Assembly (NCBI RefSeq): GCF_026210795.1 | Contig: NC_089446.1 | Span: forward strand, 4,121,001-4,185,000 | Length of the DNA stretch: 64,000 bases | Direction of reading: 5' to 3' | From: Rhizophagus irregularis | Lineage: Eukaryota > Glomeromycota > Glomeromycetes > Glomerales > Glomeraceae | Part shown: piece by piece, positions 25,334-48,119 of the stretch | Numbering within the stretch: position 1 is the stretch's first letter | Layout of the letters: each line of letters starts with the position of its first letter | Notes under the pieces: model-generated | Database searches by the model: none | The model's input: the letters and a program-made list of their open reading frames with translations, nothing else | Told to the model about the DNA's origin: nothing | Position numbers and translations under genes: made by a program

Positions 25334-25795
25334 GTCATCGGGCTGGATGTGGGAGGTGCAAGCACCACCCACCTCCGGGTCTACGACCCGTTGCAGTACC
25401 TATATGGCCCCTACGGGGCTCAGGAATCCCCATATATCCGCCACAATCTGGGACAACATCTGGAACAAATATATATATCAAATAACTAGAAAACAATAGA
25501 AAAGGAAGCAATAACGGATATAATGAGAGGGTTGTCCCGGATGTGGCAGATGTGGCAGATGTTTCAGAAAAATTATGAGAGGACATCCCCCCAGAAAAAG
25601 TTTTATTTTTACCCCCCAGATCCGCCACATCCGGAACATATGGAACAAGTCAGGATTCCGTCTAATAATCTGTTGAAAGCAGTGAGATAGCAAACCAGGT
25701 AAGTTAGCAGGTAAGCCCCTAGAAGGTCTATAGAGCCAGTAAGACCAACCCCGTCCCGCCCCCATCAGAAAAAATAAGTAATTGAACAATGGGTA
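25334..25795 (+). repeat. Left terminal inverted repeat of the Polinton-like element
   Basis: This is about 462 bp, the reverse complement of 47621-48081 with only scattered differences. The homology begins at GTCATCGGGCTGG and stops at GAACAATGGGTA. Open frames inside it mirror each other in the two arms and are not genes. Confidence 0.92.
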
Positions 25796-25825
25796 TACCA
25801 TAAGTAACCTATAAGGACAGATAAC

Positions 25826-26185
25826 ATGTATACCCCGCACGCAGTATCAGTAATCCCTAAACTTGTAGGCCATATCCTGGAACTCATTCCAAGTAGCAAT
25901 TTTGGGCCACATCTTTTAGAAGTCAGCCCAATCTGGAAAGCCGAAGCTGAACGAGTACTCTGGAAGCGGCATAAAAAAGCTGAGGAGGCATACGACAGGG
26001 CAGTAGAAAAGAAGGAAAAAGCAAATGATGCTCTTGACCAATCATTGGATGAGGAGGGTATCCTCTGTGAACTTGAATGGGAGGCGTATCAAAAGGCTTG
26101 TAAAGAGTTAACGGACACTAGAAAAGAGCTAACTATAGTAAAAGGAGCTCTTGAGCGGTTTGGATTTCAGATATATGTAGTTTGA
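25826..26185 (+). CDS. Small helical protein next to the left inverted repeat
   Basis: A 119-residue open frame starts at ATG 25826, 30 bp inside the inverted repeat. After a hydrophobic N-terminus (VIPKLVGHILELIP) the rest is strongly helical and charged (KAEEAYDRAVEKKEKANDAL, KACKELTDTRKELTIVKGAL), which suggests a coiled coil. It is followed by a 220-bp non-coding gap before the helicase. I recognise no family. The reading frame is intact. Confidence 0.55.
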   Translation: MYTPHAVSVIPKLVGHILELIPSSNFGPHLLEVSPIWKAEAERVLWKRHKKAEEAYDRAVEKKEKANDALDQSLDEEGILCELEWEAYQKACKELTDTRKELTIVKGALERFGFQIYVV

Positions 26186-26405
26186 AAAAGGGGAAGGGAA
26201 GATTTAGAGCAGTCGTAAAGGTTCGTGGTTTATAGTTTTTTTTTTACCCCTAGAAGATAACCAGATATAACCGGAGGACCGCAAAATCGCAGGACCACAG
26301 GACTACAGGAGGATAACCTGGTAGGAGTGCAGATCTTTGGAAAAAATATTCGGCAATTGAAGATTAGGTAACTATAAATTAGTACTCGATTTGATAGAAC
26401 AAAAA

Positions 26406-28969: not shown

Positions 28970-29053
28970 GCGCTATTTGAGATTATTTCTTTTTTTTTCG
29001 TATATATATAGAAAGATATTATTTATAGTTGAAGACAAATCATATACATAAAA

Positions 29054-30910: not shown

Positions 30911-31023
30911 TTGGCAAGAATGCAGTTGGATTTACAGTAGGTATATATATTTTTTCTTGCTTGAATGTAAAGTCAATTTGAAGATTCCTATTTATTACAA
31001 AGTACAAAAAAGTATAAGGAATC

Positions 31024-31494
31024 ATGTCAACATATACCGAATTAGCAAGCATTATTAACCGCACTGACAGCATTAGTGATGAAGTTATTTATGATGCATC
31101 ATGCAATCAGTTCACCATTGTCTCTGATGAAACTGTCCTCAAGATTATCCGTGCATTAAAAGACACTATAGTAGTCGCATTAGTATCTGGGTTTAGCAAA
31201 ACCAGCTACCTTGTCCAGAATCATGTGAAGTATATCAAGAGAATCCAGACAGCAAAGTCTCCTGTATCATATGTGAAGTTCGTGGCCAGAAAACTCTTCC
31301 CAGATAATGCAGCATATACTGCTAAGATAGCAAAGATTCGTGAATCATACAAGAATAAACAAGCTCTTTTAGACAAACTTGAGGCCCTCTTCGAGTTGTA
31401 TTATAATGTAACTAAGGACTCATTAACAGGTCCCCCAAAGCGAGCTGTCACTATGAATGAGGCTGAGAAAACCTTAGCAGAACTTCTTGCATAA
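31024..31494 (+). CDS. Hypothetical 156-residue protein of the Polinton-like element
   Basis: Intact frame from ATG 31024 to TAA. It is mostly helical and basic in the middle (FSKTSYLVQNHVKYIKRIQ, AYTAKIAKIRESYKNKQ) with an ETVLKIIRALKDTIVVALVSG stretch near residue 40. No transmembrane segment or zinc site is seen. It lies between the polymerase and the F-box gene on the same strand, after a TATATATATTTTTT tract. I do not recognise a family; it may be one of the minor structural or accessory proteins of the element. Confidence 0.6.
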   Translation: MSTYTELASIINRTDSISDEVIYDASCNQFTIVSDETVLKIIRALKDTIVVALVSGFSKTSYLVQNHVKYIKRIQTAKSPVSYVKFVARKLFPDNAAYTAKIAKIRESYKNKQALLDKLEALFELYYNVTKDSLTGPPKRAVTMNEAEKTLAELLA

Positions 31495-31587
31495 GCGGCT
31501 CCCGTACGAATTTAGTTTATATTTTTTATCCATTTGTAATGGGCATACAGTAATTGAAGATGGCTATAGTATAAGTAACATAACATC

Positions 31588-32005
31588 ATGTTGGACCGAT
31601 TACCAGTAGAAATAGTCGAACGCATTGTTGCAAAGATCCCAGATACTGACCTTATTGCAGCGAGTAAAGTAGATAGTGTGTGGTGGCGGGAGGTTCGTCA
31701 AGAAGCATATAAGAGATGGAAAAATTACGCTACTACAATTGGGCATGTCCAAGCTCTTGGAAAGCCGTTTGAAAAAGGGAATATTGACTGGATATCATTT
31801 GAAGATGTAAACGACTTCTATAAAAGATGGATAGACCGCCTCACCGAGGATCAGCTTTATATTATGGAGAAAATGCTTAGGAATGGGATGGTTGTGGACC
31901 CCCCAGGAAAGGGAAACCATAGAGCATGCATTAAGTGAACATAGATGGGGAGGCGATCCTTGGAGATTGGACTGGAAGTGGAATGATTGGACTCAACAGG
32001 AGTAA
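31588..32005 (+). pseudogene. F-box protein carried by the Polinton-like element, one frameshift
   Basis: The N-terminus LDRLPVEIVERIVAKIP followed by DLIAASKVDSVWWREV matches the F-box consensus (LPxEIxxxIxxxL, then VxxxW). F-box proteins bring targets to SCF ubiquitin ligases through Skp1 (family knowledge). The rest is Trp-rich (YKRWKNY, DFYKRWIDRL). The frame first ends at 31938, but one extra C in the six-C run 31899-31904 would explain this. In the shifted frame the protein continues to 32005 through GGDPWRLDWKWNDW. The product would be about 138 residues with no substrate-binding repeats visible. Confidence 0.65.
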
Positions 32006-32294
32006 GCATTTTGTACTTGACTTTCGTAGGAATTACCCTGCAGAGTCATATTTTTTAGATCCGGCCGGCATTACCGCGTAATCCCGAATTACCGAAAAAG
32101 GAAATTTATGTTACACAAGGTTCCAAACGCATTCTTACCAAATCGATTTTTTGTGGAACGGGTATCGCCCAAAAAGGAAATGATCTACGTACCGCATGAA
32201 ATCACGTGACACTCTACACATTTGTTCAGGGTATCACGTGACATGAACTCCGTTCACATTTTCTGTAATATAATCCATGAATGCATTCTAGGCC

Positions 32295-32472
32295 AATAAC
32301 CCAGTAACTTATTTATCAGGTATCCTTGCATTTTTTCGACAAGGATTGATGACCATGTAACCTTATCATCAGGTATCCTTGCATTTTTGATAAGGACTGA
32401 TGACCATGTAACCTCATCATCAGGTATTCTTGTATTTTTTGATAAGGACTGATACTGATGATAAGGACTGAT
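32295..32472 (+). repeat. Tandem repeat, about 55-bp unit, at the LINE insertion site
   Basis: About three units contain GATGACCATGTAACC, TCATCAGGTATYCTTG and TTTTTTGATAAGGACT. The last part GATAAGGACTGAT is doubled. The gene resuming at 40647 after the LINE begins with GATAAGGACTGATGACCATGT, so the repeat unit includes a copy of that gene's start region. It was therefore present before the LINE inserted. Confidence 0.7.
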
Positions 32473-32574
32473 AGATCTCTTACCGCCGATCTATTAACCA
32501 AAAATTTTCGGAAAGAAAATTTTATATCTTCGTACTAACAACTCTTATATTTTACCCATCTCATACCTTCTAAC

Positions 32575-34707
32575 ATGACTAGTAGAAACCTTGCTAGAAG
32601 AGGTGGCGGCAGCTATAATCCTAATAGTAATAAGGCTGCTCGTCAAGAAAAGAAAAATAACAAAAAACAACTCTCTGATAATTCTGGTTCTGATAGTGAT
32701 AACAATACTCAAAAACGTTCCCGTATACTTACAAAAGACTCCATGGATGAAGACTATGAAGATTTCATTGCCGACGCGCCAGCTGACGGTGGTTTAGTTG
32801 GTTCAACTTCGACCGCTATTCCTCAACAAAATAATTCCTGCAGCACCGCCCAAGAAAATACTCAAGCTTCTACCCCGAATAATTCTGCTGCGCCTACTGC
32901 GCCTGGCCAAGACGCGTCCTCTGGAGCTAACGCGTCTATTCATGCACCAAGAAACAAAGAAAACAACTCATCCCCTAGCGCGTCCCCTAATATGGACGTA
33001 AATGATGGTACATCGCCCGATCAGGTTGTTGATCCCTCCCCCACCATTACCATTAATCGTCAAGATTTCCTGGCTGCGGCTGCGCCCAACTCCGCTCCCC
33101 AAACTCTAGAGAAACTCAAAACTAATAAGGCAATTATAGATGCCGTTAACAATTTATTTTTAGAAACGTACGAATCATATACCGGTCGGGCTCGTATGAC
33201 TGGTTCAGGGGACGCTAAGCGTCTCATCATACATTTTCATACTGCGGAGGCTCGTGATTTGTGTGTTGGAAGCACACATTCCGATTTTCCGGACCTACAA
33301 TTCCACCTGTACGATCCCAAACAACTCCGGTCCGATGAAGACCTCCGTGCAATTCAAGTTACGGATATACCGTTCTTCATTACTAAACTGCAACTCCACT
33401 CCTACTTCAAGAAATTCGGCAATCTCCTTGCCCTTCATCTCTACTCAAGGAAAGGTGCTAAGATGCAACAAGCTCGCATTGTCTATGATCATGCTGATGC
33501 CATCTCCCGTTTCTCTACTCAATGGGCAGTTTACTGCTTTTCCACCTGCTTACGTGTTACCCCATGCCATTACTCTTTGGATCAAAAAGCTGCTCGTAGA
33601 GTGTTTGTAGCTGTTCTCTCTGGACTTCCCGCTAATACCAAAGATATCCATCTCGCTCCTTTGGTCAAAGAACATGGAGCAAAAGCCATTAACATCCCCC
33701 TTTCCCTAAATTCTTATAAACCCAAACCTTGGGCTTATATTACCTTCAATTCGCAAGAGACAATGGATGCCGCTATGGAGCAGACTATTGGTTTCCAAGG
33801 TCGTACTCTTCGATGGGGTACATCCAACGATTCGAAAGCTCTTTGCCACCGATGTGGTAAACTTGGTTGTGCTTCTACCTCCTGTCCGCTTAACCAACGC
33901 CGTGGTCGTTCACGTACTCGTGACCCTGTGGCTGCTCTTAAAGAACGCTTCAATATTGGCCAAAGGCCCGCCCAACAAAGAACGCCGCGCAATAATTCTC
34001 GATCTCGATCTCGATCTAAATCTCGGGATCGTTCTGCTTCAACTCAACATTCTAATTCCAACTCCAATAGATCTAATAATAATAATTCCAATATTAATGC
34101 TAAGCCCTCCTCCTCTGGCTCAGCTAACTCCTCCTCAACTGCTCATGGACGTACACCTTCCAACAACCGTAAAGGCAAAGATAGATCTGTTTCCTTTTCG
34201 TCCAATGCTCGTGCTCCACTCCCGGATCCGAATTCTCCTAATGCTCTTGAGGCTGCCCTTAAGATTCTTAATGTTTTAAAGGATCTTCAACAAGATGTTG
34301 CTCGAGTGGAATCCCGCATCTCATCCCTTGAACTTAACAACCAACGGCTCTCTGCTATAGAAGCCCATTTAGGTATTAATCCTCCCTCTGCACCTGTCGT
34401 TAATACTGAACCTGATCGAATGGAAGAAGACCCTCCTGAAACCACTGGCACCTTAATCCAGCATCCCAATGCTCCTTTATCTGCTGGTTCAATGAAATCC
34501 TCTTCCCCTACATCTACATCCAACAAAGCCCCACACTCTGCTTCTGCATCCACTTCTAACCTTTCCCCGCAAGACGAATTGAACTCCGTTATTCAAAATC
34601 AAAAAGCGATTAAAGATACTTTACAATCGCTCACTGGTTCCATCCAAGGTTTTATTGCTTCTCTTGGTGGTTCTCCCTCCGATCGAGCTTCAGCTCCTTC
34701 GCAATAA
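32575..34707 (+). CDS. LINE ORF1: RRM/zinc-knuckle RNA-binding protein
   Basis: An intact 710-residue frame. The N-terminal 200 residues are low-complexity Ser/Asn/Ala/Pro. Two RRM-like units follow, around IQVTDIPFFITKLQLHSYF and VAVLSGLPANTKDIHLAPLV. Then comes a zinc knuckle CHRCGKLGCASTSC, in which the usual histidine is replaced by cysteine (CX2CX4CX4C). An Arg/Ser-rich stretch (SRSRSRSKSRDRS) and a C-terminal coiled coil (LKDLQQDVARVESRISSLEL) complete it. It binds the element RNA for retrotransposition (family knowledge). ORF2 starts 47 bp after its stop. Confidence 0.88.
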   Translation: MTSRNLARRGGGSYNPNSNKAARQEKKNNKKQLSDNSGSDSDNNTQKRSRILTKDSMDEDYEDFIADAPADGGLVGSTSTAIPQQNNSCSTAQENTQASTPNNSAAPTAPGQDASSGANASIHAPRNKENNSSPSASPNMDVNDGTSPDQVVDPSPTITINRQDFLAAAAPNSAPQTLEKLKTNKAIIDAVNNLFLETYESYTGRARMTGSGDAKRLIIHFHTAEARDLCVGSTHSDFPDLQFHLYDPKQLRSDEDLRAIQVTDIPFFITKLQLHSYFKKFGNLLALHLYSRKGAKMQQARIVYDHADAISRFSTQWAVYCFSTCLRVTPCHYSLDQKAARRVFVAVLSGLPANTKDIHLAPLVKEHGAKAINIPLSLNSYKPKPWAYITFNSQETMDAAMEQTIGFQGRTLRWGTSNDSKALCHRCGKLGCASTSCPLNQRRGRSRTRDPVAALKERFNIGQRPAQQRTPRNNSRSRSRSKSRDRSASTQHSNSNSNRSNNNNSNINAKPSSSGSANSSSTAHGRTPSNNRKGKDRSVSFSSNARAPLPDPNSPNALEAALKILNVLKDLQQDVARVESRISSLELNNQRLSAIEAHLGINPPSAPVVNTEPDRMEEDPPETTGTLIQHPNAPLSAGSMKSSSPTSTSNKAPHSASASTSNLSPQDELNSVIQNQKAIKDTLQSLTGSIQGFIASLGGSPSDRASAPSQ

Positions 34708-34754
34708 CTGATTTCTCAACTCTTTTCCCCGTTTATAATTATCATTGTGTTCTA

Positions 34755-37700
34755 ATGATTGACAATTTTGATTATGATACGTTTGTTCGAAACCCCCCCA
34801 ACTCTGTAGATATTTATAATTTTTCAGCACATGAATCTTTATTTACTACCTTAAATGTTTCTCCTATCCCTAATTCTTTTAATATTTCATCCTTTAATGT
34901 TAATGGTCTTCGCCATAATAGTCAAGTTAAAATTGAACAAATTTCAAACTTTTTCAACCTTAAACATATTTCTTTTGGAGGTATCGTAGATACCCATTTA
35001 TCCCCCAAACAAATTCATTTTTTATCTAAACGCCTTCCTAATTATACTGTCTTTTCCTCTGACATAGATAAAACTAAACAAGTCAAATCTACTGGTGGCG
35101 TTTCCCTTTTTATTGAAAAATCTCTTGCTCCTCATGTACAAGATTTTGTTTCACATTCCTCACGTATTTTATCTGTTGACCTTTATTTTAAAGGCAACAT
35201 TAAATTGCGTATTTTTGTTATATATATCCCTCCTATTTCTGATTCTAAATTACGATCTGAAACTATTGATCTCCTTTTACAATTATTAGTGCAAACTAAA
35301 CAACAAAATTTTTATCACGCCATTTGTGGCGATTTTAATATGCACTTAGATACTTATTACCCTATTTATTTTAATCGCCCTTCTGTTGCTTCTCAACGGT
35401 CTTATCGTTTGTTGTATCATCTTTTATCTCATGGTTATGAAGAAACCATTCCTGTTAATGCTTCTGATTCCCTAGGCACCTTTCACCGTGATGACCAGAT
35501 TATTCGCATAGACTATGTTTGGTCCTGCCCGATGCTAAAAAGCTTTGCTCTCACTTCCTACATATTCGACGCCCATGATACCTGCTCTTCTGATCACAAT
35601 CCTGTCATCACGTATTTTGATGATTCACTCTTGGTTGCGTCTATCAAGGTTGCTCGTGCTAAACAACTTCAACGTCGAACTCGCCGCATTTTTAAATTTG
35701 ATTCAGTCACTACTCAACAATGGGAATCTTTTTCCACTCACACTGACTCATTTTGCGGCGTTCTTCCTTCTACTTTTTCAACATGGCACATCAATCAACA
35801 ATGTGAATACTTACATTCTCGTATCGTGAAAGCTGCTAATGCTTCTCTTCCATCTGTCACGGTCGGTAATCAACACACACCTCCGGTGCCTAAAGACTTG
35901 GAAGCTTTAACTCAACATTATCGTTTTCTCAGCCGTCTTTTGCATTCAATACGCTTATTGCGCAAATATCCTTCCACATATTTTAATAGATATGAACATG
36001 TTTGGTCCATTCATTTCATTCGACTTCAAAAAATTCTTCATCTTTATAAGAAGGTTATTCCTTCCCCCCTATTTTACCTACTTCTTTAACCACGTGTAGG
36101 CAAGACGGTTTTAATTCTTTATTAGAATCCTTAAAGACTATTTCCAGTGCCCTTTATGGCCTCCTTCTTCTCAAAGAAAAAGATTTTCAAGATTCTTCCA
36201 TTCGTGCCAAATTGGATGATAGGGACAACAATTTTGAATCTGATATTTCCTCATTCATTAATTCAGCTCTCTCAAGGACTCGACGTCGTATCACATTGGA
36301 TCGTGTCTTTATCGACCACCCTACACAACCTAAACTTCTAACGGACCTGCATGATATTGATGACGCTGTTATCAACCACTTCCAGAATTCCGTACCTATT
36401 AAATCATCTCCTCCTGATAACATTTCAGCTCTTCCTGAAAAATGGTCTTCTGCTTATCGCCCTATGGATGATGTGAATTCTTCTATTTATGATTCTTTGT
36501 TGGATCCTCCTACTCTTGAAGAATGGTTGTTTACGGTCTCTTCTATGCCCAATGACAAAGCTCCTGGTCCTTCTATGATTACTTATGAGATGCTTAAGCA
36601 TTTGGGTTCAAACGCTTCTGCTCTGGTTTTAATCCTGGTCCAATCATGTTTCCACACTGCAGACATTCCTGATTTATGGCGTCAAGCTATGGTTTTCCCT
36701 ATTCCTAAACCTCACGAATGGAAATGTCAACTCAAGAATACAAGACCTATTACTTTACTTGAAGTAATTAGGAAATCTTTGGTCAAACTCTTTTATAATC
36801 GTCTCGCTTCCATTTTGGCTTCGAATGAAGTTCTCAAAGGAGGAAACTTCGCCGGTCTCCCTGGTGGTTCTTGTCGCGACCCTATTGTCGTCTTGGAATC
36901 TATTATCCATGATGCTCATGTCAACAAATCGCCGCTTTGGATCCTTTCACAAGATATTTCAAAGGCTTTCGACTCAGTTGATCTCAAGATGTTGCGTTTT
37001 GCTTTAGAACGCATTAAACTTCCTGCTTCTGCTACCAAGTTTATTTTATCCCTTTTTATGAAACGCTCTAATCGCGTTTTTACTGCTCATGGAACTACAC
37101 TTTCTTACCGCGTTCGTATTGGTATAGATCAAGGCGAAGTTATCTCTCCTTTACTCTGGGTTATATATATAGACCCTTTATTGACCGTTCTTAAGAATGA
37201 AATGATGGATCCATATATACTTCATGCTCCTTCTTTATCTGATCCCTTGGCTGAGTCAAGTCCAGATGGATTACGCATCAATAACTTGGTCTTTATGGAC
37301 GATTCTACTTTAATTTCGTCATCTAAATCTGGAATGGAATCGATGCTTTCTATTACAGAAGAATTTTATCAGATTAATAATACTTCCGCTAATCACAACA
37401 AATATGTTTTAATTACTAATTCGTTGCCTCCCACTTCAGCTCCTTCGCCTTCTCCAGTCGTGTTTGACTTGCGATTATCTGGACTGAACAAAGTTCCTTC
37501 CATTTCTATTGTGCCTATTTCCATGAATAGTTCTTTTCGCTTCCTGGGCGTCTGGTTCAATGTCGCTGGATATCGTGATTTTGTCAGAAAGCAAGTTGCT
37601 CGAGAATGTAACTCTTTCGCTGCTACCGTTCGTCCTGCCAAATTATCTGCTAAACATGTAGTTTATTTACACAACACTGTCCTTATTCCGAAATTGGAAT

Positions 37701-40375
37701 ATCGCATGCAAGTCACACACCTCTCTGAATCTGAATGTGTCTCGGCAACCAGCAGTATCCGTTCCTTGGTTAAACATAAGGCCAATTTTTCACGTGTACT
37801 CCCAGATTCTATTTTGTTTTTATCTCAAGGCTTGGGATTGATTAATTTATTTTTTCACCAATCACAAACACATTTAACTAATTTGTTTTTATTAGCTAAT
37901 TCTTCTTCTTTTTTTATGAAAAATTTATTTTTATATAGATTACGTTTAATTCAATTTTCTTTTTTGATTCCCATTTCTCCATTGTTAGTTAAAGATTGGA
38001 CTTTATGGTCTAAACTTTTCGCTTTCAAACAGGATTATATCGCTTGCACTATTGCTCTCCTGACCACCACTCCTTTCAAGTTGTCACGTTCTTGACTTTC
38101 AACCTCGTCTGACCTCGCTATACCTGATGGTCATATGCCTTTATTTGAAGTAATGACTTCAAAAATTTTTATATCTTACTTCCGACGTCTAAGAAGTTTG
38201 CAACTCTATTACCTATCTCAATTCATCACGCCTCAAGGGACCCATATGATCACTTGGAATGTTTATTTATCCAATCTGTCAAGTAGGAAAGGCCATCGAG
38301 TCCTCCCGCATAAATGGTTCAATGACATCCACCAATGCGTCACTGTTCCTAATTCCAATTCTCTGCTCTTGGATCAATTTTCTTCTGAAGCTATCCCTTC
38401 AAACATTGACTTGGCCCCAGCCTTTGGTTCCTCTAGAAAATCCATGAAATGGATCGTGACTTTAGACGAAGATGGCTCTCCTCTTTTTGGAAAACAACTT
38501 AGCAAACAACAATATTCCTGCAAGATTGTCCATTGGACCTCTGATTGTGTGGCTCGACCTAATGATGTTATTACGCTTACTCCTTGTCCCGGTTGCTCTA
38601 AACATGTACCGGTTACCCATACTAAAAGCAACCCAACAGATGTTACTCCTCTATGTATCATCCCAAAACTTTCTCCTCTTAGAGCTTTACTTCTCCCAAC
38701 AACGCAGGAGCGTATTAGACATGACACCACCACTATTACTTCTCCTTTTACTTGGGCGGACCTTGACGAGATTGTAAAATCCTATTATGGTCGTTTGGAC
38801 ATTCTACCTAATTTTTCACAAGAAGATGTAGTTACTCTCCCTTCTCCTTCTCCTTCTCCCTCCTTGGGTTCGGCTGCCTCTCTTGCTTTTGCTGCCTCAC
38901 CGTTAGCGACTCCTCCTGATAATCATTATTGTTTTTATACTGATGGTTCTTTAATTAACCTTGGCACTCCTGAGGTTTCTATAGGTTGGTCTTGGGTACA
39001 AGTCCTTGATGGCGTTGGTTTTTTCCAATCTATTGCTGCTCACGCTCATGGAATTTTTCACAATTGGCCTTCTTCTACAAGAGCTGAAATCGCCGCTATA
39101 CATGCTGCTCTTACAGTCACTCCTCCGTTTTCAACGGTCACTATTCATACTGACTCTCAATCTGCCATAGATGGTCTTCGCCTATGTGCTACCCTTTCTT
39201 ATTCCAATAGTAGGCTTTATTACAAGACCACCAATTTTGAACTTTGGGCTATTATTGAACGTCTCATTTCCTCCAAATCTTTATCCGTCACGGCCGTTAA
39301 AGTGAAAGGTCACTCTGGTAATTTCTATAATGACTACGCGGATTCTCTGGCCATCTCTGCGCATACTTCTTCTTCAGCAATTCTTCTTTCTGATCTGGAT
39401 CAAGTATCTCCTCACGATTTCTTATTAAAATATGATGATATTTTATGCGAATCCAACCCACGACGCCTATTTAAGCAATATTCGCAAATGCTGTGGATGC
39501 ATAGATTAACGCGTTTATCGCGTTTTAACTTTACCATTGCTTTATCTTCCATCTCAGACTTCGTAATCGATTGGGATCTTACCTGGTTCACGTTAAATGC
39601 TGAACCTCAGCATGATGCTTCTTTTACTCGTGCTCATGCTTCCTCTCATCGAACCTTCAAATTCAAACTCTTTTTGGAAGATTTACCTATCTTGGAACAT
39701 CTTAAAAGAATTCGCCCGGACTTGTATATCGACATCTTATTATGTCGTTCATGCCTCGACTCCAAGGAAGATTTCATGCACTTGTTTATGTGCAAATGTA
39801 GACGAATCGCTATAGAACAGATTCTCCTCTCCTACCAACATCACTTTATCAACAAACTTCAAGAAGCTGGTGATCTCGTTAAGAAAGATCCCTCTTTAAT
39901 TATTAACAAATTTAAATCTCTTCCTTGTTGGTCCTTTTCTTCTTCAAATTGGACTTCATATAGTCTTGTTCGTGGCTGTCTTCCGAAATCCTTTGTCGAA
40001 TTTTTTGAAGAACTTTCTATTCCACGTAACTCTGCGATGAAGGTTATCTCTGCTATCCACAATCACTTTATCCAAAAGATTAGAAAACGAATTTGGCTAC
40101 CGCGCTCCTATGATAAATCTAAATGGGAAGACGCGATGAATATTACTCATAAACTCAAACTTTCTCGGCCTTCTAATTTGCCAAAGTCCACGTACTTACC
40201 CTTCTCAACTTTACCTCCTCCGACCCTTTCCGATGCCGCACGTGACTCTGACGTTGATTATTTAAAGAACTCGATGAAATATGGTTTGCCTTGGTTTAAT
40301 CACTATTCAGGTTTTATGGGTCATCTAACGGTGCAACTTACTAACAGCTTTAGCAGGGTGGTGTGTCAATTTTAA
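34755..40375 (+). pseudogene. LINE ORF2: endonuclease, reverse transcriptase and RNase H
   Basis: Endonuclease (34755 on): SSFNVNGLR, ICGDFNMH, RIDYVWS, SSDHNPVI. Reverse transcriptase: NDKAPGPSMITYEML, TRPITLLE, DISKAFDSVDL, GIDQGEVISP and FMDDSTLIS. RNase H: FYTDGSLIN, TRAEIAAIHA, IHTDSQSA and NDYADSLA, with all four acidic residues present. A CX2CX8HX3C motif (CRSCLDSKEDFMHLFMC) follows. One missing C in the six-C run 36064-36069 shifts the frame, and one in-frame TGA stands at 38093-38095. Counting the base, the gene is exactly 1874 codons. It is therefore two point changes away from a full-length ORF2. Confidence 0.88.
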
Positions 40376-40657
40376 CAATGGGCGCATTGTTCGTTGGTTT
40401 GTTTGCATAGTTGCCTCTTCTTAGGTTGAAATATATTTAGGCGGGGGATCAGGATAGTTTTAGTGTTATGCGATTTTTTCCTTTTCGAATTAATTTTATA
40501 GCTTTATTACTGTTTTGGAGACTATATAGTTTTGTTTTTAGTTAATTTTTATTTTTCTTTTTTGTACTTTGAAAATTTCATTTTATTTTTGTAAGTTCGA
40601 TAAATAAATTTAATAAAGATAAAGGCTACTATGCCATATTTGCCTTGATAAGGACTG

Positions 40658-41275
40658 ATGACCATGTCACTTGGTTATTATAAATTGAAGAAAACTATTA
40701 GGTATGTAGACACATACAGAAAAAAAGATATGTCTTACCCTTATATAGCTAACCCTATAACTGGACGTCCAATTATTATCGGTGGAGATACCTTTAATCG
40801 AATAGTTATGGAATCCCATGATTATATTGATGGAAGGCTTGTCCGTAGACAAACTGCACCTCCACCTGAAGAGCAACCTGTATATTTAAATACAGATACA
40901 GGACGTTATGTTCGACATGGTACTAGAACATATCATAGACTGATTGAGAGTGACTATGAGGTAGTTGAGGATTACTACCTTGTCCATTATGAAGAAGAGG
41001 CGCTTATAGAGGAAATCATCAATGAAACACGCTATAATGAGGAAAATCTTGATGGGCAGCGGTTAACTTTCAATGATATACAACAAATCAGGACCGCTAT
41101 TCAGGCTGACCAAGATGAATATGATGATTTTATCTTACAGCAAGATACGACTAACGGGACACCTTCCTCTGGTCCTTCCGGTCATCCACGAACTTTGGAG
41201 GACCATACCCCGAGACTTGCAGAGCTTAATATTGAGTTGTGTAGGGAATGTCTCATGCCTGTAAGTCCCAAGTGA
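40658..41275 (+). CDS. Protein with two NPxTGR-type repeats resembling large-DNA-virus adaptor motifs
   Basis: Intact frame of 205 residues (ATG 40658; a second ATG at 40664 is equally possible). NPITGRPIIIGGDTFNRIV (residues 32-50) resembles the NPxTGRxIxxGGxxYxxL motif of 2-cysteine-adaptor domains found in poxvirus, iridovirus and related proteins (family knowledge). A second, weaker copy is NTDTGRYVRHGTRTYHRLI (78-96). The flanking cysteines of that domain are missing. The middle is very acidic, and the C-terminus has CRECLMP. It is the first gene after the LINE and its start overlaps the LINE target-site repeat. Confidence 0.6.
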   Translation: MTMSLGYYKLKKTIRYVDTYRKKDMSYPYIANPITGRPIIIGGDTFNRIVMESHDYIDGRLVRRQTAPPPEEQPVYLNTDTGRYVRHGTRTYHRLIESDYEVVEDYYLVHYEEEALIEEIINETRYNEENLDGQRLTFNDIQQIRTAIQADQDEYDDFILQQDTTNGTPSSGPSGHPRTLEDHTPRLAELNIELCRECLMPVSPK

Positions 41276-41357
41276 CTTAACGGACAAGTTGTGCAAGGAC
41301 TGCTCCGAATAGTTACTTAATTTTGAATAATTCTTTTTTACATAAAGAAAGATAGCC

Positions 41358-41769
41358 ATGTCAACATCAATCGTAATAAACCAGTGCCAAAACTATGGAG
41401 TAATCACTCCAAAAACAGCACATAGAGGATTATCCAGTGTATTATACAGACAGATTATAAAGAAGATTAGTGATGAGAATGGCCCTCTGACAAGCCTTGG
41501 GACTTGCTAGGGATAAGTTAGTTCAGATCATTCGTCGGGCAAGTAATGTGGACTTTACACAATTGTTTACACAAAGACTGGATATGAAAATTATGGATGG
41601 AGAGCCATATGAAGATATTAGGAAGTGGCTTCTCGAACAGCTTATAGCCATAGGTTGTGATAGTGGAGAAATTGCCTTATATCAATTTCTAAGGGATACA
41701 TATCCAGATGGTATCGACGAGCCTTTCAATACATTCTATGAGAACTATGTAAATCATATAAGTAATTGA
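41358..41769 (+). pseudogene. Hypothetical 136-residue protein, one frameshift
   Basis: The frame from ATG 41358 (MSTSIVINQCQNYGVITP) runs to 41510. One extra G in the run 41499-41501 explains the break, because the next frame continues smoothly as LARDKLVQIIRRASNVDF to 41769. With the correction the length is exactly 137 codons. The protein is helical with LFTQRLDMKIMDG and IRKWLLEQLIAIG segments. No family is recognised. It is followed directly by the next small gene (TGA and ATG adjacent). Confidence 0.5.
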
Positions 41770-41919
41770 ATGACTAAGAACTTTGCTTCTGCGTCCTTAG
41801 GAGCAATAGGGTTGAAGGCTAAGATGTTAAGGATTGACTTTGAAGGCCGTAAAAAAAGTGCTATGATTCTTAGAGCTTCTGCAGACGAATTACTTGATAT
41901 TCTCACAAGATACTATTAA
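41770..41919 (+). CDS. Small 49-residue open frame, TGA-ATG coupled
   Basis: ATG at 41770 directly follows the stop of the upstream gene. It reads MTKNFASASLGAIGLKAKM, then a basic-helical stretch with FEGRKKSAMILRA and an end ILTRYY. The tight junction and the even composition suggest a real small gene, or the distal part of the upstream protein. It converges with the minus-strand frame ending at 41903, overlapping it by 17 bp. Confidence 0.35.
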   Translation: MTKNFASASLGAIGLKAKMLRIDFEGRKKSAMILRASADELLDILTRYY

Positions 41920-42271
41920 TCCCTACTTGTAATGCTCGACGGTCCATGTGGCTCTTAGAAAAGATCTGTAAAAGGACTTCAATACCTTCTATTATTTTTT
42001 TATTATCCAGAGGGCGACTAGACTTCAGGGCTTCATATCGGGAGAATAACTCCTTTACATTCTCAGTTTTCAGAGTTTCAGTCTTTGCAGTCCTACCCTG
42101 CACTTTTGCTAAGAAGTCCTGAAAGTCAGCTCCTAGGGTCTTACCAGAGAGTCCATAAGCTTCCCGAAAGACAAATTTAATCCAGGTATCTGTATTCTTG
42201 GCTAAGACACCAGGTACAAGTAAATGTTGACGCTCTTTAGGGGATGGAAATACCTGAGCAAATTCAATCAA
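41903..42271 (-). CDS. Hypothetical 122-residue frame downstream of the ATPase
   Basis: The frame opens with IEFAQVFPSPKERQHLLVP and continues through WIKFVFREAYGLSGK, DFQDFLAKVQGR and LFSRYEALKSSRPLDN. Upstream in other frames lies a repeat-coded stretch (42290-42450), which may belong to the same protein, so the start is uncertain. I recognise no family. By position it could be either the distal part of the ATPase transcript or an independent virion-like gene. Confidence 0.45.
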   Translation of the reverse strand: MIEFAQVFPSPKERQHLLVPGVLAKNTDTWIKFVFREAYGLSGKTLGADFQDFLAKVQGRTAKTETLKTENVKELFSRYEALKSSRPLDNKKIIEGIEVLLQIFSKSHMDRRALQVGINSIL

Positions 42272-42294
42272 GTGTCCACCTTTTTTGCTTCAGA

Positions 42295-42440
42295 TACAGC
42301 TTTCGACCATAGGGATAAACTTGGATCGAACTGTGATTAAACTGGGTTCAGACTGAGATCGAACTGGGTTCAAACTTGGATCAAACTGAGATTGAACTGA
42401 GATTGAACTAGGATTGAACTGAGATTGCTCTGTGATCAAA
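42295..42440 (-). repeat. Short degenerate repeats, GAACTGRGATT-type
   Basis: About ten copies of a 10-12-bp unit related to GATTGAACTGA and GATCAAACTGG. Read on the minus strand in one frame they encode FNPSS, FDPSLNPV and SEPSLITV-like peptides, so the repeat is probably in a coding region. It lies between the ATPase C-terminus and the next frame. Confidence 0.6.
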
Positions 42441-42459
42441 CTGAGACTAGTATCCCATC

Positions 42460-43125
42460 TTACTCGAATGGACAGTGGATCACTTTTAGACCGTCTAGAT
42501 CAAACACTACAAATTCACGTTGCAAAGTAAGATCATCAATTACTGGTGCTAATGACTCTGATTCTTCTGTATATAGGCGAATGATTCTCTTAGTATCTGT
42601 AAGGCTCCCATGAGCCTCCATGCAGTGAGATGTAGTTAACATTTTCTCGGAATAGCGCTTAGGAATGGCGAAAGAATCTTTGATTTCAGCCAAATACATG
42701 AAATATTTTTGTGTCGTCATGTGTAAAGTAACCAGTGATGAGATCCTGGATTTTTTTAGGTGCATCCATCAGATCCTCAAAGATTACCACAGTAGCTTGA
42801 GTAGGGTCGAAGGAGTCAATCTCTGGAATCTCACTATGGGTTACTGCAGTGAATGGGATCTTCTCCTCTTCGAAAAAATCATGTACAATGCCCACTTCGG
42901 CTCGTCAAGATATCTGCCAACTAAAAGTACTGCATCACATAGTACATACCGATTACCATCCTCCTTTGCCTTCTTGTCACCCATTAACAAGTTAATGATC
43001 ATAGTTGTCTTACCTGAGTCTGAGCTACCTGCTACGGCTAATCGAAAGGGCCATGATGGAGCAAACTCATTGCCTTGTCTTGAGTCAGTCGTGTACTCGT
43101 CCAAATTGTATATATAAAGATCCAT
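42460..43125 (-). pseudogene. Packaging-type ATPase (FtsK/HerA, A32-like), two frameshifts
   Basis: The N-terminal piece (43125-42841) has WPFRLAVAGSSDSGKTTMI with Walker A GSSDSGKT at residues 33-40. The middle piece (42895-42686) has Walker B ATVVIFEDLMD. The C-terminal piece (42765-42460) has LAEIKDSFAIPKRY. Together they make about 220 residues, the usual size of Polinton genome-packaging ATPases. One shift lies at the six-A run 42873-42878 (plus strand), the other near 42705-42715. The start is 31 bp from the divergent start of the coiled-coil gene. A packaging ATPase implies a capsid partner. Confidence 0.72.
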
Positions 43126-43156
43126 TTGAATTTTATTCTTACTTAGTTTAAATATT
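43126..43156. promoter_or_regulatory. 31-bp divergent spacer between ATPase and coiled-coil gene
   Basis: Only 31 bp separate the ATG of the minus-strand ATPase from the ATG of the plus-strand coiled-coil gene. It is AT-rich (TTGAATTTTATTCTTACTT) and must hold both 5' leaders. The core promoters probably extend into the coding regions (inference). Confidence 0.4.
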
Positions 43157-43954
43157 ATGTCGACATCAACACCAATTCCAGTTTATACTCCTTCAGAACC
43201 TACTGGACCGCCTCCTGCACACTTGGCTAATGAAGAAGACGATGATGAATTAGTTAGAATACTAAAGGCTCATGCAAATTTATTGACTACCAGGGGTCGT
43301 TTAACTGTTGATTCAGAGATACAGGAGGCAAATAATCAAATCAAACATATTATTAATATATTAATGTATCGCCGTAAAGCAAAACATGAAGAACTTGGTA
43401 TTACAAAAGATTTGTTAGTTTTTGACAGCAGTAAGATAAATGCATTTGATGAAACGTTTACTAATTTAGAACGTCAATTAGTTATTATACGTGCTGCCAA
43501 TGATAATTTCATAGAAGAAAACCATAACCTGCAAAAAGATTATGATACTATGGTAGAGCTTCGTCGACGGGCTATAGGTGAACGTAATCAGGCACGACAT
43601 GAACGTAATGTATTACAAGCAGATTATACTCAAGCAGTAATGGATCGTAATGAGACTCAAAATGCTGTGAATCGTGGTAATATCCTTCTAAATCATTGGC
43701 GGCTGAGGGCTACTTGGACTGGAGGACAACTTGTATTGGTTAATGCGCAACTTGGACAGGTTAATGCACAGCTAGCACATGCTAATAATAGGGTGCGTTT
43801 TGGAATTCAGACATTAGGGAGACTTAGGAATAGACTTTTCCAACAGATAGCTGCTCTTAGAATTCAGGTACAATGGTTTCGAATTAGACAATTGAACCCT
43901 CCTCCACCTCTTTTAAACAATCCACTAGAGACGATATGGCTACCACTGCGATAG
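43157..43954 (+). CDS. Coiled-coil protein directly upstream of and overlapping gag
   Basis: Intact frame of 265 residues. After a Pro-rich N-terminus (STPIPVYTPSEPTGPPP) the rest is long charged helix with coiled-coil-like heptads (RRRAIGERNQARHERNVLQ) and tandem VNAQLGQVNAQLAHANNR. It ends FRIRQLNPPPPLLNNP. Its last 19 bp overlap the start of the gag frame in another frame, an arrangement that would permit coupled translation. Helical domains before capsid are common in retrotransposon Gag proteins, so this may be the N-terminal (matrix-like) part of Gag (inference). Confidence 0.6.
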   Translation: MSTSTPIPVYTPSEPTGPPPAHLANEEDDDELVRILKAHANLLTTRGRLTVDSEIQEANNQIKHIINILMYRRKAKHEELGITKDLLVFDSSKINAFDETFTNLERQLVIIRAANDNFIEENHNLQKDYDTMVELRRRAIGERNQARHERNVLQADYTQAVMDRNETQNAVNRGNILLNHWRLRATWTGGQLVLVNAQLGQVNAQLAHANNRVRFGIQTLGRLRNRLFQQIAALRIQVQWFRIRQLNPPPPLLNNPLETIWLPLR

Positions 43955-45100
43955 GATTGCCGATTTTTGAGGGTAAAGCTACTGATGATATTGATACATT
44001 TGTTAGGCTTTATATGGGTTATCTTGATACTATTAATCTTAACCCATATGCTGCTGGAGGGCCACCAGAGTCTTGGAAAAGAGCTATGGGTATACTTAGA
44101 AGCTGCATGGCCGGTGAAGCGGCTGAATGGTTTGATCGAGAAATTACAGGAAAAAATTGGGAACTTTCTGGTATCTTCAGCTGGTGGAGCTAATTTAGCT
44201 GCTTTTGTAGCATTAGTGATACCAGAAGGTGTAGGAGGACCGAATGTAGGTACCTATGTAAATGGGTCTGAAGCACAAATCTATTCAAGAGATCCAGTTA
44301 ATGCATTAGTAACTATTAGAGCAGCATTTATTCCTACTCATGATTTAATGGGTGGAGATGAAGCTTGGAAAAGAGCTGGTGCTCGTCCCACGGATAGAGC
44401 TGCTCCAGCTACTGCAGATGCTGGTGTTGCTGTTAATAATAATCATCCTATAGTTTTTCCAGGTATTAAACCTAATCAGGCGCTTTATTGGCTTAGAACA
44501 CAATTTCCAACTGTTTTAGATGAAAAGAAACGTATCCGTTTTAACAGTCTTTACCAGGAAAATGAGCCAGTTGATGCATTTTATAGAACTGTAAAGAGGG
44601 CTGGAAAATTACTAAGACTAACTGATGATTTTATTATCGACCAGTTCTTTAGAGGTCTTTCGGCTGATAATATTTTTGAAGCAGAAAGGTTTCACAATCT
44701 TAATCCTGATGACTTGGTTAAACATCTGAGAAATTTAGAACGGAGAAGGGCTGAAATGCGCTTGGGGTTACAAGATAGAAATCGGCGACTTCGAGCAGAT
44801 TACAGTGATGTAACTCAACCTCCATTAGGAAAACAGGAACCTGTCGTACTGACATCAAAGTCATCTGGGTTACTCAAGAACAATTACAAGAGTTACTTAA
44901 GGCTCAGGCTGAAGAACTTACCAAGAATTTCCAGGTGCAATTTAAACAATTACAGGCTCGGCCAGTTCGTAATCCACCAGTCTATAGACAGCAGATTAAA
45001 CCTGTTCGACCAAAACCACAGAGACGTGTTGTTCAGGGATCTCAGGATCACTGATTGGGATGATGGTTATGTAGATCGTGATGTTGGTGATGGACCCTGA
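43936..45100 (+). pseudogene. Retrotransposon-type Gag capsid protein in a Polinton-like element
   Basis: The first part (43936-44190) holds LPIFEGKATDDIDTFVRLY, SWKRAMGILRSCMAGEAAEWF, the W...A...M.G.A..WF pattern of retrotransposon Gag capsid N-domains. After one extra T near 44172 the second frame continues to 45100 with RIRFNSLYQENEPVDAFYR and TDDFIIDQFFRGLS, the capsid C-domain pattern. With the correction it is exactly 388 codons. No CCHC knuckle is seen. The next frame starts at the stop (TGATG). In this element it occupies the place of capsid genes. No reverse transcriptase is found beside it. Confidence 0.68.
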
Positions 45101-45511
45101 TGCTTCCTGAATGGACTTTGGATGATCATCAAAATGCTATTGATCTTATTATGGGATATAAACGTGGGACGTCTAAAATACTTACAAATCAACTTCAGAA
45201 GGCTAAAGATAGACGTGATGATCTGGATTTGGCCCGAGCAATGAGAAACCTTGATCTTAACGATGATGCTATGGACATTGATACTGTGAGTTTTGGTGAA
45301 AAGGTAGAATTGAGAGAAAAAGATGGTGATGTCTATATGGTTCGTGTTGGGTCAAAAAAAAGTAGGTTCGAGTATCTCAAAACTTCTTAAGTCGTCCCCA
45401 AATAAGACAGCAGTTAGCTCTTCTAGTGTGCCATTGAAAGGCAAAGCAACCCCCTGCAAGATTCCCTGTCGATTCGGTAGTAAGTCTACACCTGCAAAAG
45501 CTCGTTACTAA
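45100..45511 (+). pseudogene. Linker protein between gag and protease, one frameshift
   Basis: It starts at an ATG overlapping the gag stop by one base. MLPEWTLDDHQNAIDLIMG is followed by LTNQLQKAKDRRDDLDLARA and an acidic MDIDTVSFGEKVEL segment. One extra A in the run 45354-45361 shifts the frame; the shifted frame gives SISKLLKSSPNKTAVSSSS and a basic Cys/Lys end to 45511. The total is exactly 137 codons with the correction. I recognise no domain. Position suggests it belongs to the Gag-protease unit. Confidence 0.45.
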
Positions 45512-45528
45512 GAATGACTTATTAAGCC

Positions 45529-46101
45529 ATGTTAAGGTCTGCAGACTTTAGGAAATTACTCCGTGAGATTCTTCAGGAGGAGTTATTGTCTGCTAGAAAA
45601 GTCCCAGAGATTCCGGAGGACCTAGTTGAGGAGGAACAAGAAGAGGATATCAGGGTAAACGATCCTATGGATATTGACATAGCTCGTTTAGAGAATACTA
45701 AAGATCTTTTAGCACTGGATGGGAAGGTTAATGGAATAGCAATTCAGTGTTTAGCAGACACTTGTGCTAATGTGTCTTTTATTCGAGAGAAGCTGCTGAG
45801 GAATTAGGGTTGGATATCGACAAGAGTATTACATACAACATATCTGGCGCTTCAGGAACAGGTAGGACATTCGGCATGGTAAAGGGAGTGTCAATCAAAC
45901 TTACCCCCTGATTATGCTATCACTGAGGATCTTGCAGTTTTAGATGGATACAAGCATAGGGAGATTGGGTTAAGCCGAACGTGTCTGAAACGTTACAATT
46001 ATGATGTCCATGAATCACGTGAACATATAGCCTTTACCTGTGATGGGAAGAATGTTTTTATCCCGATAGTTCCTGATGCTAATCGAGGGGATAAAAAATA
46101 A
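45529..46101 (+). pseudogene. Retropepsin-like aspartic protease, frameshifted
   Basis: After an acidic N-terminus (VPEIPEDLVEEEQEEDI) the frame reads ALDGKVNGIAIQCLADTCANVSFIR, the strand-turn-strand pattern of retroviral-type proteases with DTCAN where D[TS]GAxxxFI is usual. Then, in shifted frames, come YNISGASGTGRTFG, DYAITEDLAVLDGY and REIGLSRTCLKRY, resembling the flap and the second half (ILG-type motif as IGL). Shifts lie near 45793 and at the C run 45904-45908. It would cleave Gag-type precursors (inference). It ends 27 bp from the convergent integrase stop. Confidence 0.6.
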
Positions 46102-46127
46102 GACCCTTTAATTCTTCTATTTTTTTT

Positions 46128-47220
46128 TTATTCCCAAAATTTGCGAATTAAGTCAGGGACATCCTCCTTCAACCAGTCAGCAGGTTCCCAAGTAGCCTCA
46201 GTGTCTGGATAGCGCTCCCACTTAACCAAATACTGGTCTTGACCTTTTCTAATGCGATGCCGAAGTATCTGCTCAGGGAGAACAAATCTTTCAGGTTGTC
46301 CTCTTATCAGCAGAGTCAGGTGGAGGCTTTTCATTAATAGGAACTACTTGCAATTCCTTTCGGGTATATGCACATCGGATACAGTATGTCGACCGATGTG
46401 GTCCATTAAGGAGATATGTAGGAGGCTGTTCGGGTGAGAGTATCATTTTTTTGATTACACGAATGTTTGGGTTCCATCTTATATCTCCTGTACGGAATTT
46501 TCCTGAAGTTTGTTGGGCCAAGTACAGAAATAGGTTCATCTAACTTGACTCTGACACGTGCTCCTTCAAAGAGGAGATCCGTCTTTTTTGACACTTTGGG
46601 TGACCCTGTCGGAATGTCTGGGGGATTTCTCTGCCAGAGTTCATTTACTTTACTCACTATATTATGGAAATCTTCTGACCATTCCACGGATGTCACCCCG
46701 GTTTTCAACTCCTGTGCTACCATTCATTTAAGAAGGGGTTCTTGGATGGCTTGGATAGCTCTTTCAGCATAAGATTGCTGTTTATGCCTTCCTGGCTCTC
46801 CGAACCTCATCATTACACCTAGGCTGTTCAGGAAAAAATCACGTACCTGGTCGTTAGTGAATTCTGATCCAGAGTCCGTCTCTATTCGATGTGTTGGTGG
46901 CTTAATGCGATTTCTTCTGTAGATTTTGACAAACCCGTTTAGAATCCCCCATTTCGCAGTCTTACCTGCGCTCTGCATCAACTCTTCCTGCAACTTCCAC
47001 CACTACGAGAAAATAGCGGAATCCTTTGGGGCCAACTGGCATCTCTGCAAGATCTGCCTGATGTGTTGCATTTGGTTTCCATATAATTACCTTTGGGCGT
47101 TCTGTTGACTTTTCCTTTAGGGGCTTTTTGTATAGGTTGTAATCTTTCTTACCTTTTAAAATTCGTGCTGAGTCTTCTGGATAGACTGTAGTACTTGTAG
47201 TAATTCTCTAATTGTGACAT
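46128..47220 (-). pseudogene. Retroviral-type integrase with C-terminal chromodomain, frameshifted
   Basis: Reading from ATG 47220 with small frame shifts: WKPNATHQADLAEMPVG and FRYFLVVVEVAGR (first Asp), THRIETDSGSEFTND (second Asp) and QSYAERAIQAIQ (Glu, 36 residues later). An SH3-like region VRVKLDEPISVLG with RTGDIRWNP and a chromodomain IRKGQDQYLVKWERYP, ATWEPADWL follow. This c-integrase plus chromodomain is the hallmark of Maverick/Polinton elements. It inserts the element DNA and may read histone marks. Frame breaks near 47200, 46985, 46720 and between 46540 and 46330 make the copy inactive. It sits next to the right inverted repeat and converges with the protease gene. Confidence 0.78.
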
Positions 47221-47222
47221 AT

Positions 47223-47580
47223 TACGACAAATTAAAGGAAAGATTTCAGACTTCAAATCTCAAGATGACACGATTTTACTGTCAAAGTGCAAGAAGGAAA
47301 CTGAGACTGCTAGTGAAATACAAGATATGACTACAAATGGGCGTTATCGGCTACATGGTGACGCACAATTTGTGGTATGCATAAGAATACTTTTACTGGA
47401 GTAGACTGGGTTATCAAAAAGACTATAGGAGAAAAGAAAGAAACCGCTGCTAAGAGACATCAGACGGTTTACAATCGGCAATGCAAAAAACTTGGACAGA
47501 AAATCTTAGATTCTGATGACGCGTGTAAACAGTGTATTGATAAATGCCTTAAGGAAGCAAAAAAGAGGAAAACGGATTAG
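47223..47580 (+). pseudogene. Small Lys/Cys-rich frame between integrase and right inverted repeat
   Basis: The clear part is 47377-47580: MHKNTFTGVDWVIKKTIGEK, RQCKKLGQKILDSDD and CKQCIDKCLKEAKKRK. Upstream, from about 47223 in another frame, SDFKSQDDTILLSKCKKE and RYRLHGDAQFVV look like its N-terminal part. CKQCIDKC could bind zinc. It is divergent from the integrase. I recognise no family. Confidence 0.35.
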
Positions 47581-47620
47581 TACTGTCTTCTAAACTTATC
47601 TGAATATGTTCTATTCCCAA

Positions 47621-48081
47621 TACCCATTGTTCAATTACTTATTTTTTCTGACGGGGGCAGGACGGGATTGGTCTTACTGGCTCTATAGACCTTCTAGGGG
47701 CTTACCTGCTAACTTACCTGGTTTGCTATCTCACTGCTTTCAACAGATTATTAGACGGAATCCTGACTTGTTCCAGATGTTCCGGATGTGGCGGATCTGG
47801 GGGGTAAAAATAAAACTTTTTCTGGGGGATGTCCTCTCATAATTTTTCTGAAACATCTGCCACATCTGCCACATCCGGGACAACCCTCTCATTATATCCG
47901 TTATTGCTTCCTTTTCTATTGTTTTCTAGTTATTTGATATATATATTTGTTCCAGATGTTGTCCCAGATTGTGGCGGATATATGGGGATTCCTGAGCCCC
48001 GTAGGGGCCATATAGGTACTGCGACGGGTCGTAGACCCGGAGGTGGGTGGTGCTTGCACCTTCCACATCCAGCCCGACGAC
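47621..48081 (-). repeat. Right terminal inverted repeat of the Polinton-like element
   Basis: Reverse complement of 25334-25795, starting inward at TACCCATTGTTCAATTACTT and ending GCCCGACGAC at 48081. ATTGT follows directly. Confidence 0.92.
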
Positions 48082-48119
48082 ATTGTTAAGAGAACTAAAA
48101 TTTTTTGATTTTCTTTAAG

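Follow-up and report, generated by a model that had tools for sequence, protein, structure and literature searches.

The DNA analysed here (64,000 nucleotides, positions 4,121,001 to 4,185,000 of contig NC_089446.1 of Rhizophagus irregularis; hereafter the window) carries a 22.7-kb transposable element at 25334..48081. It is probably a self-replicating Polinton-like DNA element that uses a Gag and a protease of retroelement type as its particle module. The window copy has decayed and belongs to a large Polinton-like family; the gene plan was read from undamaged copies that occur naturally elsewhere in the assembly. The plan comprises a helicase, a putative family B DNA polymerase, small open reading frames (ORFs), an A32 ATPase, a coiled-coil ORF, Gag, a retropepsin and a chromodomain integrase. 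An earlier note on this DNA had proposed that a Gag-protease pair replaced the virion module of the element. The present analysis supports this proposal, in which particle formation and DNA packaging by Gag stay at the level of prediction.

Gene plan, copy number and selection

The assembly searched comprises 146.7 Mb in 32 contigs; only the best candidates were scored, and the genome-wide counts given here are lower bounds. The block of gag and protease genes was found at about 100 places and in two families (families 1 and 2), and this recurrence rules out chance ORFs as its explanation. At 97 of the 108 listed integrase places, gag is convergent with the integrase gene at a distance of at most 1.6 kb, most spacings being 1006-1035 bp; 50 of these places have a family 1 Gag and 47 a family 2 Gag. 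As for the other 11 places, gag lies 1.7-11 kb off in six and no gag is listed in five. For ten of the 111 gag places, no convergent integrase is listed within 12 kb; the window copy, in which the integrase is broken, is one of them. The pairing took 111 of the 132 gag matches and 108 of the 111 integrase matches, with second fragments of one copy left out. The opposite orientation of gag and integrase, described in the earlier note for the window, holds at those 97 places, and the spacing is nearly constant. Copies in which a jelly-roll capsid gene takes the place of the block, which that note regarded as counter-evidence, were not seen, and no capsid family was found among the ORFs tested.

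Several pairs of terminal inverted repeats (TIRs) lie 14.3-14.9 kb apart in the genome, and the usual size of the element is about 14.5 kb. The inverted-repeat ends of the element read GTC..GAC. The target duplication, checked at 12 TIR pairs, was 5 bp long in eight and 6 bp in one; it was absent in two, and the end motif was missing in one.

In an undamaged copy, the ATPase, the protease and the integrase clear the Pfam cut-offs, but Gag does not. The A32 ATPase (400-411 codons) scores 37.1 bits with Pox_A32 against a cut-off of 22.8, and the integrase scores 36.6 bits with rve (cut-off 32.6) and 62.2 bits with Chromo (cut-off 25.1). The protease reaches 36.1 bits with Asp_protease_2 (cut-off 24.3) and 30.4 bits with gag-asp_proteas (cut-off 28.2). 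The helicase has 823-865 codons in undamaged copies, and DUF5906 matches it with an expectation value (E) of 2.9e-17 in an intact relative. For the polymerase, the family 1 copy that was read has a broken gene, and that of L065, a family 2 copy, matches DNA_pol_B_2 with E 6e-6 and 25.8 bits, exactly the Pfam cut-off of 25.8. The polymerase is short and, judging from its length, would lack an exonuclease domain.

The ratio of nonsynonymous to synonymous substitution rates (omega) was calculated between the two families by the NG86 method from a single pair of copies per gene, L064 and L065 for the helicase, the polymerase part and three small ORFs, and L061 and L063 for the remaining genes. Omega was below 1 in all 11 genes compared: 0.07 for the integrase, 0.08 for the polymerase part, 0.095 for the ATPase, 0.145 for the helicase, 0.15 for the protease, 0.40 for Gag, 0.56 for the coiled-coil gene and 0.10-0.35 for four small ORFs. 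Gag and the protease, for which the earlier note had suggested a test of selection, therefore have omega below 1 in their one copy pair each, as do the polymerase and the integrase. Of the 31 family 1 loci examined, 12 have an intact gag ORF, and these give a ratio of nonsynonymous to synonymous differences (pN/pS) of 0.39 over 66 pairs, which are not independent.

The many breaks of the window copy would agree with a single insertion of a Gypsy-type retrotransposon into a Polinton, where it is carried along as debris. Such an origin is extremely improbable in view of the block's recurrence in two families, the intact gag ORFs in family 1 and the values of omega, and neither long terminal repeat (LTR)-like direct repeats nor a reverse transcriptase were found in the block. 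Direct repeats of at least 40 nucleotides in 40400-47640 comprise a minisatellite only, and the RVT_1 profile matched nothing in the window except a nested long interspersed nuclear element (LINE) and none of 10 proteins of other copies; the earlier note had likewise seen neither LTR nor reverse transcriptase beside gag. A one-off insertion is refuted by the recurring copies and the absence of LTR-like repeats. Diverged relatives, described below, also pair Gag with an integrase and partly with an ATPase, in line with the earlier view that a simple Gypsy insertion does not explain the element.

The synonymous divergence (dS) is unevenly distributed between the families. In the Gag core it was 1.1-1.8 or saturated in most windows of the alignment (0.24 in the first), in the Gag tail 0.13-0.80 (1.3 in the last 15 codons) and in the protease 0.33-1.1; the whole-gene values of the remaining genes were 0.36-0.91. 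By the dS windows of this single comparison, the Gag core looks older than its surroundings, as if it had been swapped as a cassette.

Gag, the protease and their junction

The family 1 Gag has 476-484 codons in undamaged copies. With profile matches listed to E 1, Retrotrans_gag was matched by 14 of 28 members of family 1 and its relatives (best E 0.0047). It was also matched in three diverged loci, L068 (E 0.0009), a piece of L069 (E 0.056) and a piece of L070 (E 0.0006), and by 10 of 17 relatives of L070 (best E 0.00029). Where positions were shown, the matches start at 38-55 of the profile and end at 96. The L069 Gag used as a query retrieves family 1 Gags at E near 1e-24, and an alignment of seven diverse members contains 21 invariant columns. 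The repeated sub-threshold Pfam matches, taken with the architecture, suggest that the protein is a Gag. It is the natural candidate for the shell protein. In L069 and L070 the Gag ORF is a fused one, and the coiled-coil gene matches its N-terminal part in position. No slippery heptamer was found between the coiled-coil and gag ORFs in three copies, and gag therefore probably starts at its own ATG.

The junction of gag and protease has a different structure. Nine A residues stand directly 5' of the gag stop codon in 22 of 33 loci; the run has other lengths in six loci, and the search motif was not found in five. At 16 of the 22 loci with nine A, the protease is encoded in the -1 frame and its ORF runs through the gag stop without interruption, with an overlap of 34 nt in 14 family 1 loci and of 46 nt in two family 2 loci. 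For the remaining six, the protease ORF does not continue through the stop or is in a different frame, or no protease motif was detected. Read in the gag frame, the run gives A AAA AAA and A AAA AAG as heptamers (three copies checked). In copy L051 (C4:5175011), with seven A instead of nine, gag and protease form one frame of 737 codons. In the copy at C8:3624140, gag likewise lies within a 737-codon open frame. Four of the six metagenome Gag proteins printed end in KKK, which argues that the A run is not an error of this assembly. A -1 overlap before the protease is a layout of retroelements, giving much Gag and little protease.

It seems that the element could work as follows. Gag would mostly be made alone, and at the A run before its stop codon a minority of ribosomes (or transcripts) would slip by -1 to give a Gag-protease fusion. 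The protease would trim Gag, its DTC active site notwithstanding, and Gag with its coiled-coil partner may assemble the shell. The A32 ATPase would load this shell with the DNA that the family B polymerase and the D5 helicase have copied, and the chromodomain integrase would insert the DNA with a 5-bp duplication. Gag and its protease would then have replaced the double jelly-roll capsid and the Ulp1 protease of other Polintons.

The capsid question, known systems and diverged relatives

In agreement with the earlier note, which had seen neither a double jelly roll nor a Ulp1 protease, no such family was found among the element ORFs scanned against Pfam, a set without the 111-aa and 173-aa ORFs. 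ORFs of single-jelly-roll size, suitable for a penton protein, exist, and none of them was matched by Pfam. A jelly-roll or other capsid that escaped recognition, whether the element's own or supplied in trans by another virus, might make the particle, with Gag as an accessory. It is improbable that this is so, although several ORFs have no assigned function in undamaged copies: they are 111-219 amino acids long, and a double jelly roll is longer than that. This alternative gains from PMC7805220, where Polinton-type capsids are described as very divergent and as found late in some other hosts. According to the same paper, R. irregularis is one of the hosts in whose Polintons a gene of the major capsid protein (MCP) could not be detected and was still not found, and missing capsid genes prompted the idea that some Polintons became plain transposons. 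Intact or split MCP genes were present in >80% of 72 Polintons, as given in an excerpt of PMC4028283. The text of PMC10640383 speaks against a hidden capsid, as it reports no MCP in R. irregularis with models from phages, giant viruses, mirusviruses and herpesviruses; the same text reports no A32 or D5 gene in this fungus, and since both were found here, its negative result for MCP is a weak one. No report of a Gag in a Polinton was found in the literature searched (open-licence papers, mostly as titles, abstracts and passages). A passage of PMC8547959 describes Ngaro retrotransposons with a Gag-like ORF inserted into virophage elements, which is a different case.

With Polintons (Mavericks) the element shares TIRs, a chromodomain rve integrase, an A32/FtsK-type ATPase and a size of about 14.5 kb, and probably a family B polymerase. 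It differs from them in having a putative Gag and a retropepsin, neither a double jelly-roll MCP nor a Ulp1-type protease having been recognised, and in its duplication, which is mostly 5 bp whereas that of Polintons is 6 bp. Caulimoviruses have a retroelement-type capsid protein and an aspartic protease with a double-stranded DNA genome and replicate by reverse transcription; the element is similar to them in its putative capsid protein and its protease but has a probable DNA polymerase. The plan of mavirus, as given in part of PMC11071308, includes a TP-vOTU-PALM polymerase plus S3H. The element resembles mavirus-type virophages in its short polymerase and separate superfamily 3 helicase (PMC11071308), a likeness judged by ORF length and, by eye only, by Cys (NDCLY) and His (GHYSL) motifs; unlike them, it has no recognised jelly-roll capsid or cysteine maturation protease.

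A Gag-type protein, a -1 overlap into a retropepsin, a chromodomain integrase and a 5-bp duplication are features of Ty3/Gypsy elements (Metaviridae); the element has a candidate for the first and shares the others. Unlike Ty3/Gypsy, the element has TIRs, a probable DNA polymerase, a helicase and a packaging ATPase, its integrase is on the opposite strand, and no reverse transcriptase, RNase H or LTR was found. The history may have run in reverse, with a Gypsy-like chromovirus losing its reverse transcriptase and taking over a DNA-virus replication module; Gag, protease and integrase would then all stem jointly from the retroelement. The adjacency of Gag, protease and chromodomain integrase, all of Gypsy type, and the 5-bp duplication fit this course of events, which is compatible with the mechanism proposed above. 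It is nevertheless rather unlikely, given the strand of the integrase, the DNA-virus character of the A32 ATPase and D5 helicase, and the integrases of L068 and L069, which have no chromodomain match yet accompany a related Gag.

The diverged relatives are 28% identical in Gag; an rve integrase again accompanies it, as does an A32-type ATPase in some groups. L068 and L069 were fetched through other A32 ATPases as possible jelly-roll relatives and carried Gag instead; in both, a coiled-coil-Gag gene lies opposite an rve integrase, with the ATPase adjoining. The integrase ORF of L068 (L068:2027-3685) continues into a cysteine-rich tail that looks like a nuclease by eye, with no Pfam match over the cut-off. 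With the L069 Gag as a query, 65 places were compared, its own locus included, and an integrase lies within 12 kb in 56 of them and an ATPase in 18. Both genes accompany all three places at 85-100% identity. At 49-60% identity, an integrase is found at 33 of 37 places and a listed ATPase within 12 kb at none, a count that leaves out family 1 and family 2 ATPases possibly nearby. The five places at 42-46% identity include three with an integrase and one with an ATPase, and the 20 places at 34-39% include 17 and 14, respectively. This comparison took 65 of 121 gag, 57 of 147 ATPase and 109 of 114 integrase matches, members of families 1 and 2 and fragments being left out. There are 22 ATPase places with an integrase and no listed Gag; at one, C5 (L068), a Gag is present and had escaped the search.

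The L070 lineage is of high copy number, and its integrase gene runs on the other strand; an integrase is present at 33 places, and its distance to Gag is 924-939 bp at 24 of these. A listed ATPase within 12 kb occurs at none of 37 places of this lineage. Here a single ORF of 1075 amino acids (L070:66-3290) contains the coiled coil, Gag, a CCHC knuckle and a protease carrying DTG and LLG; the knuckle was matched in 15 of 17 relatives. The order is that of a Gag-protease polyprotein, and families 1 and 2 look like the same polyprotein split into three frames and devoid of the knuckle. An F-box-like ORF follows in L070 (F-box-like E 1e-6). The 29 relatives of L070 comprise 14 from R. irregularis, five from Entrophospora, which belongs to another order of Glomeromycota, and 10 without an organism name. 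Among IMG/VR viral contigs, 35 stretches fitted the search pattern and none was confirmed. Two of five weak helicase matches, L066 and L067, were considered as gag-less Polintons for comparison and proved unsuitable, having a tyrosine-recombinase-like ORF. These mobile-looking stretches (L066:1719-5464 and L067:2841-6000) combine a D5-like helicase with that ORF, recognised by eye, and no Gag was seen in them.

Several observations weigh against a Gag shell filled with element DNA. Every Retrotrans_gag match with a score shown is under the gathering cut-off of 24.1 bits, and a Retrotrans_gag scan to E 0.5 gave no match for the family 2 Gag of L061 or for the whole L069 ORF. Profile and single-sequence searches of PDB with Gag returned one unrelated match and no Gag capsid. 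The L070-type profile gave no PDB match better than E 0.03, in a list that includes DDI1 proteases, nucleocapsid knuckles and Arc1 (E 0.37). Retropepsins carry DTG or DSG at the active site; in the 99 pattern matches obtained from 169 proteins scanned, many of them without a match, the triad is DTC throughout. On the 3' side of the slip signal no stable RNA structure was found (z +1.4 and +1.1), which makes transcriptional slippage as possible as ribosomal frameshifting. Lastly, the relatives at 49-60% identity with no listed ATPase indicate that Gag and motor are separable.

Gag and the protease could be real and selected without packaging the DNA of the element, acting in trans, for example in RNA-protein granules, in interference with host retrotransposon particles or in tethering to chromatin. 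The departure from canonical DTG and the group of Gags with no listed ATPase are in favour of such a role, as is the lack of a visible CCHC knuckle in the printed Gag sequences of families 1 and 2. It is unlikely: the block sits between ATPase and integrase in both families, Gag recurs with the two in L068, L069 and others, an ATPase being present at 18 of the 65 places, and the -1 overlap has the retroelement layout for much Gag and little protease.

If the preferred reading of Gag as the shell protein is right, these elements are not capsid-less, and capsids have been swapped between DNA-virus and retroelement lineages, which would provide an example, open to testing, of a capsid replaced across realms. 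DNA copied by a polymerase, a DNA-virus motor, a retrovirus-type Gag shell and a retropepsin made by frameshifting would then form a virion joining two realms. The chances seem about even that such a virion exists, is old in arbuscular mycorrhizal fungi, as the Gag relatives in Rhizophagus and Entrophospora suggest, and has had its capsid core exchanged between families as a cassette. Fungi would gain their own kind of DNA virus-like particle. In addition, a repeat class that has recently expanded in a major plant symbiont would be partly explained, Maverick being named among the recent expansions in PMC8647823.

The window copy and other repeats

The TIRs of the window copy (25333-25796 and 47620-48082, about 463 bp each) are 96-98% complementary. 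With these repeats and the exact ends located, the coiled-coil, Gag, protease, ATPase and integrase genes are enclosed by a single TIR pair, as the earlier note had it. The distances given there also stand for the 31 bp between the coiled-coil ORF and the divergent ATPase start (43125), for the space between the block and the convergent integrase (26-27 bp, 27 bp in the note) and for the 19-bp overlap at the gag start (43936). The 1-bp overlap at 45100, taken there for a gene border, is a break within the damaged gag; where the copy is undamaged, the protease gene overlaps gag by 34 or 46 nt in the -1 frame. The helicase, ATPase, gag, protease and integrase are all frame-broken here, and a Pfam scan of pieces of the window matched the ATPase, protease, integrase and Gag families only under the cut-offs.

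Features of the element in the window (positions refer to the whole stretch)
Feature	Position	Strand	Remark
Left terminal inverted repeat	25334..25796	+	ATTGT target duplication at 25329-25333
Small conserved ORF, ~125 aa	25808..26182	+	93% identity to L064 ORF
D5-like superfamily 3 helicase, DUF5906	26361..28864	+	DUF5906 E 3e-16; frame broken
Family B DNA polymerase (candidate)	29051..30907	+	620 codons in family 2 copy L065
Conserved ORF, ~158 aa	31018..31491	+	comparison with other copies
F-box-like ORF, ~131 aa	31579..31972	+	F-box E 0.006, under cut-off
219-aa ORF, 2-cysteine adaptor-like motif	40652..41309	+	2C_adapt E 0.001 in L064, under cut-off
Conserved ORF, ~190 aa	41346..41916	+	omega 0.096, family 1 vs family 2
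A32/FtsK-type packaging ATPase	41906..43125	-	undamaged copy Pox_A32 E 3.2e-9; frame broken here
Coiled-coil gene	43157..43954	+	96% identity to intact ORF; coiled coil judged by eye
Gag capsid-type gene (candidate)	43936..45360	+	Retrotrans_gag under cut-off in several lineages; broken here
Retropepsin-like aspartic protease, DTC active site	45330..46101	+	undamaged copy Asp_protease_2 E 1.1e-8; broken here
rve integrase with C-terminal chromodomain	46128..47259	-	undamaged copy Chromo E 4e-17, rve E 5.5e-9; broken here
Cysteine-rich ORF, ~111 aa	47250..47577	+	comparison with other copies
Right terminal inverted repeat	47620..48081	+	ATTGT target duplication at 48082-48086

The nested LINE occupies 32575-40375 and has a large ORF1, an endonuclease-like ORF (by eye) and a reverse transcriptase. 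The third long ORF of this region matches RVT_1 at E 2e-23, and its ORFs thus belong to the LINE and not to the Polinton-like element. An 11-bp minisatellite lies at 42306-42470 within the ATPase gene, and the ATPase ORFs of L063 and L061 differ by 11 codons, apparently at this site.

Beyond the element, inverted repeats about 4.4 kb apart at 54757-59491 surround ORFs (55151-57806) that are transposase-like by eye and probably represent another DNA transposon. Inverted repeats with 143-bp arms, 5.7 kb apart, were found at 12661-12803 and 18528-18670, and a nested hairpin lies at 49284-49755.

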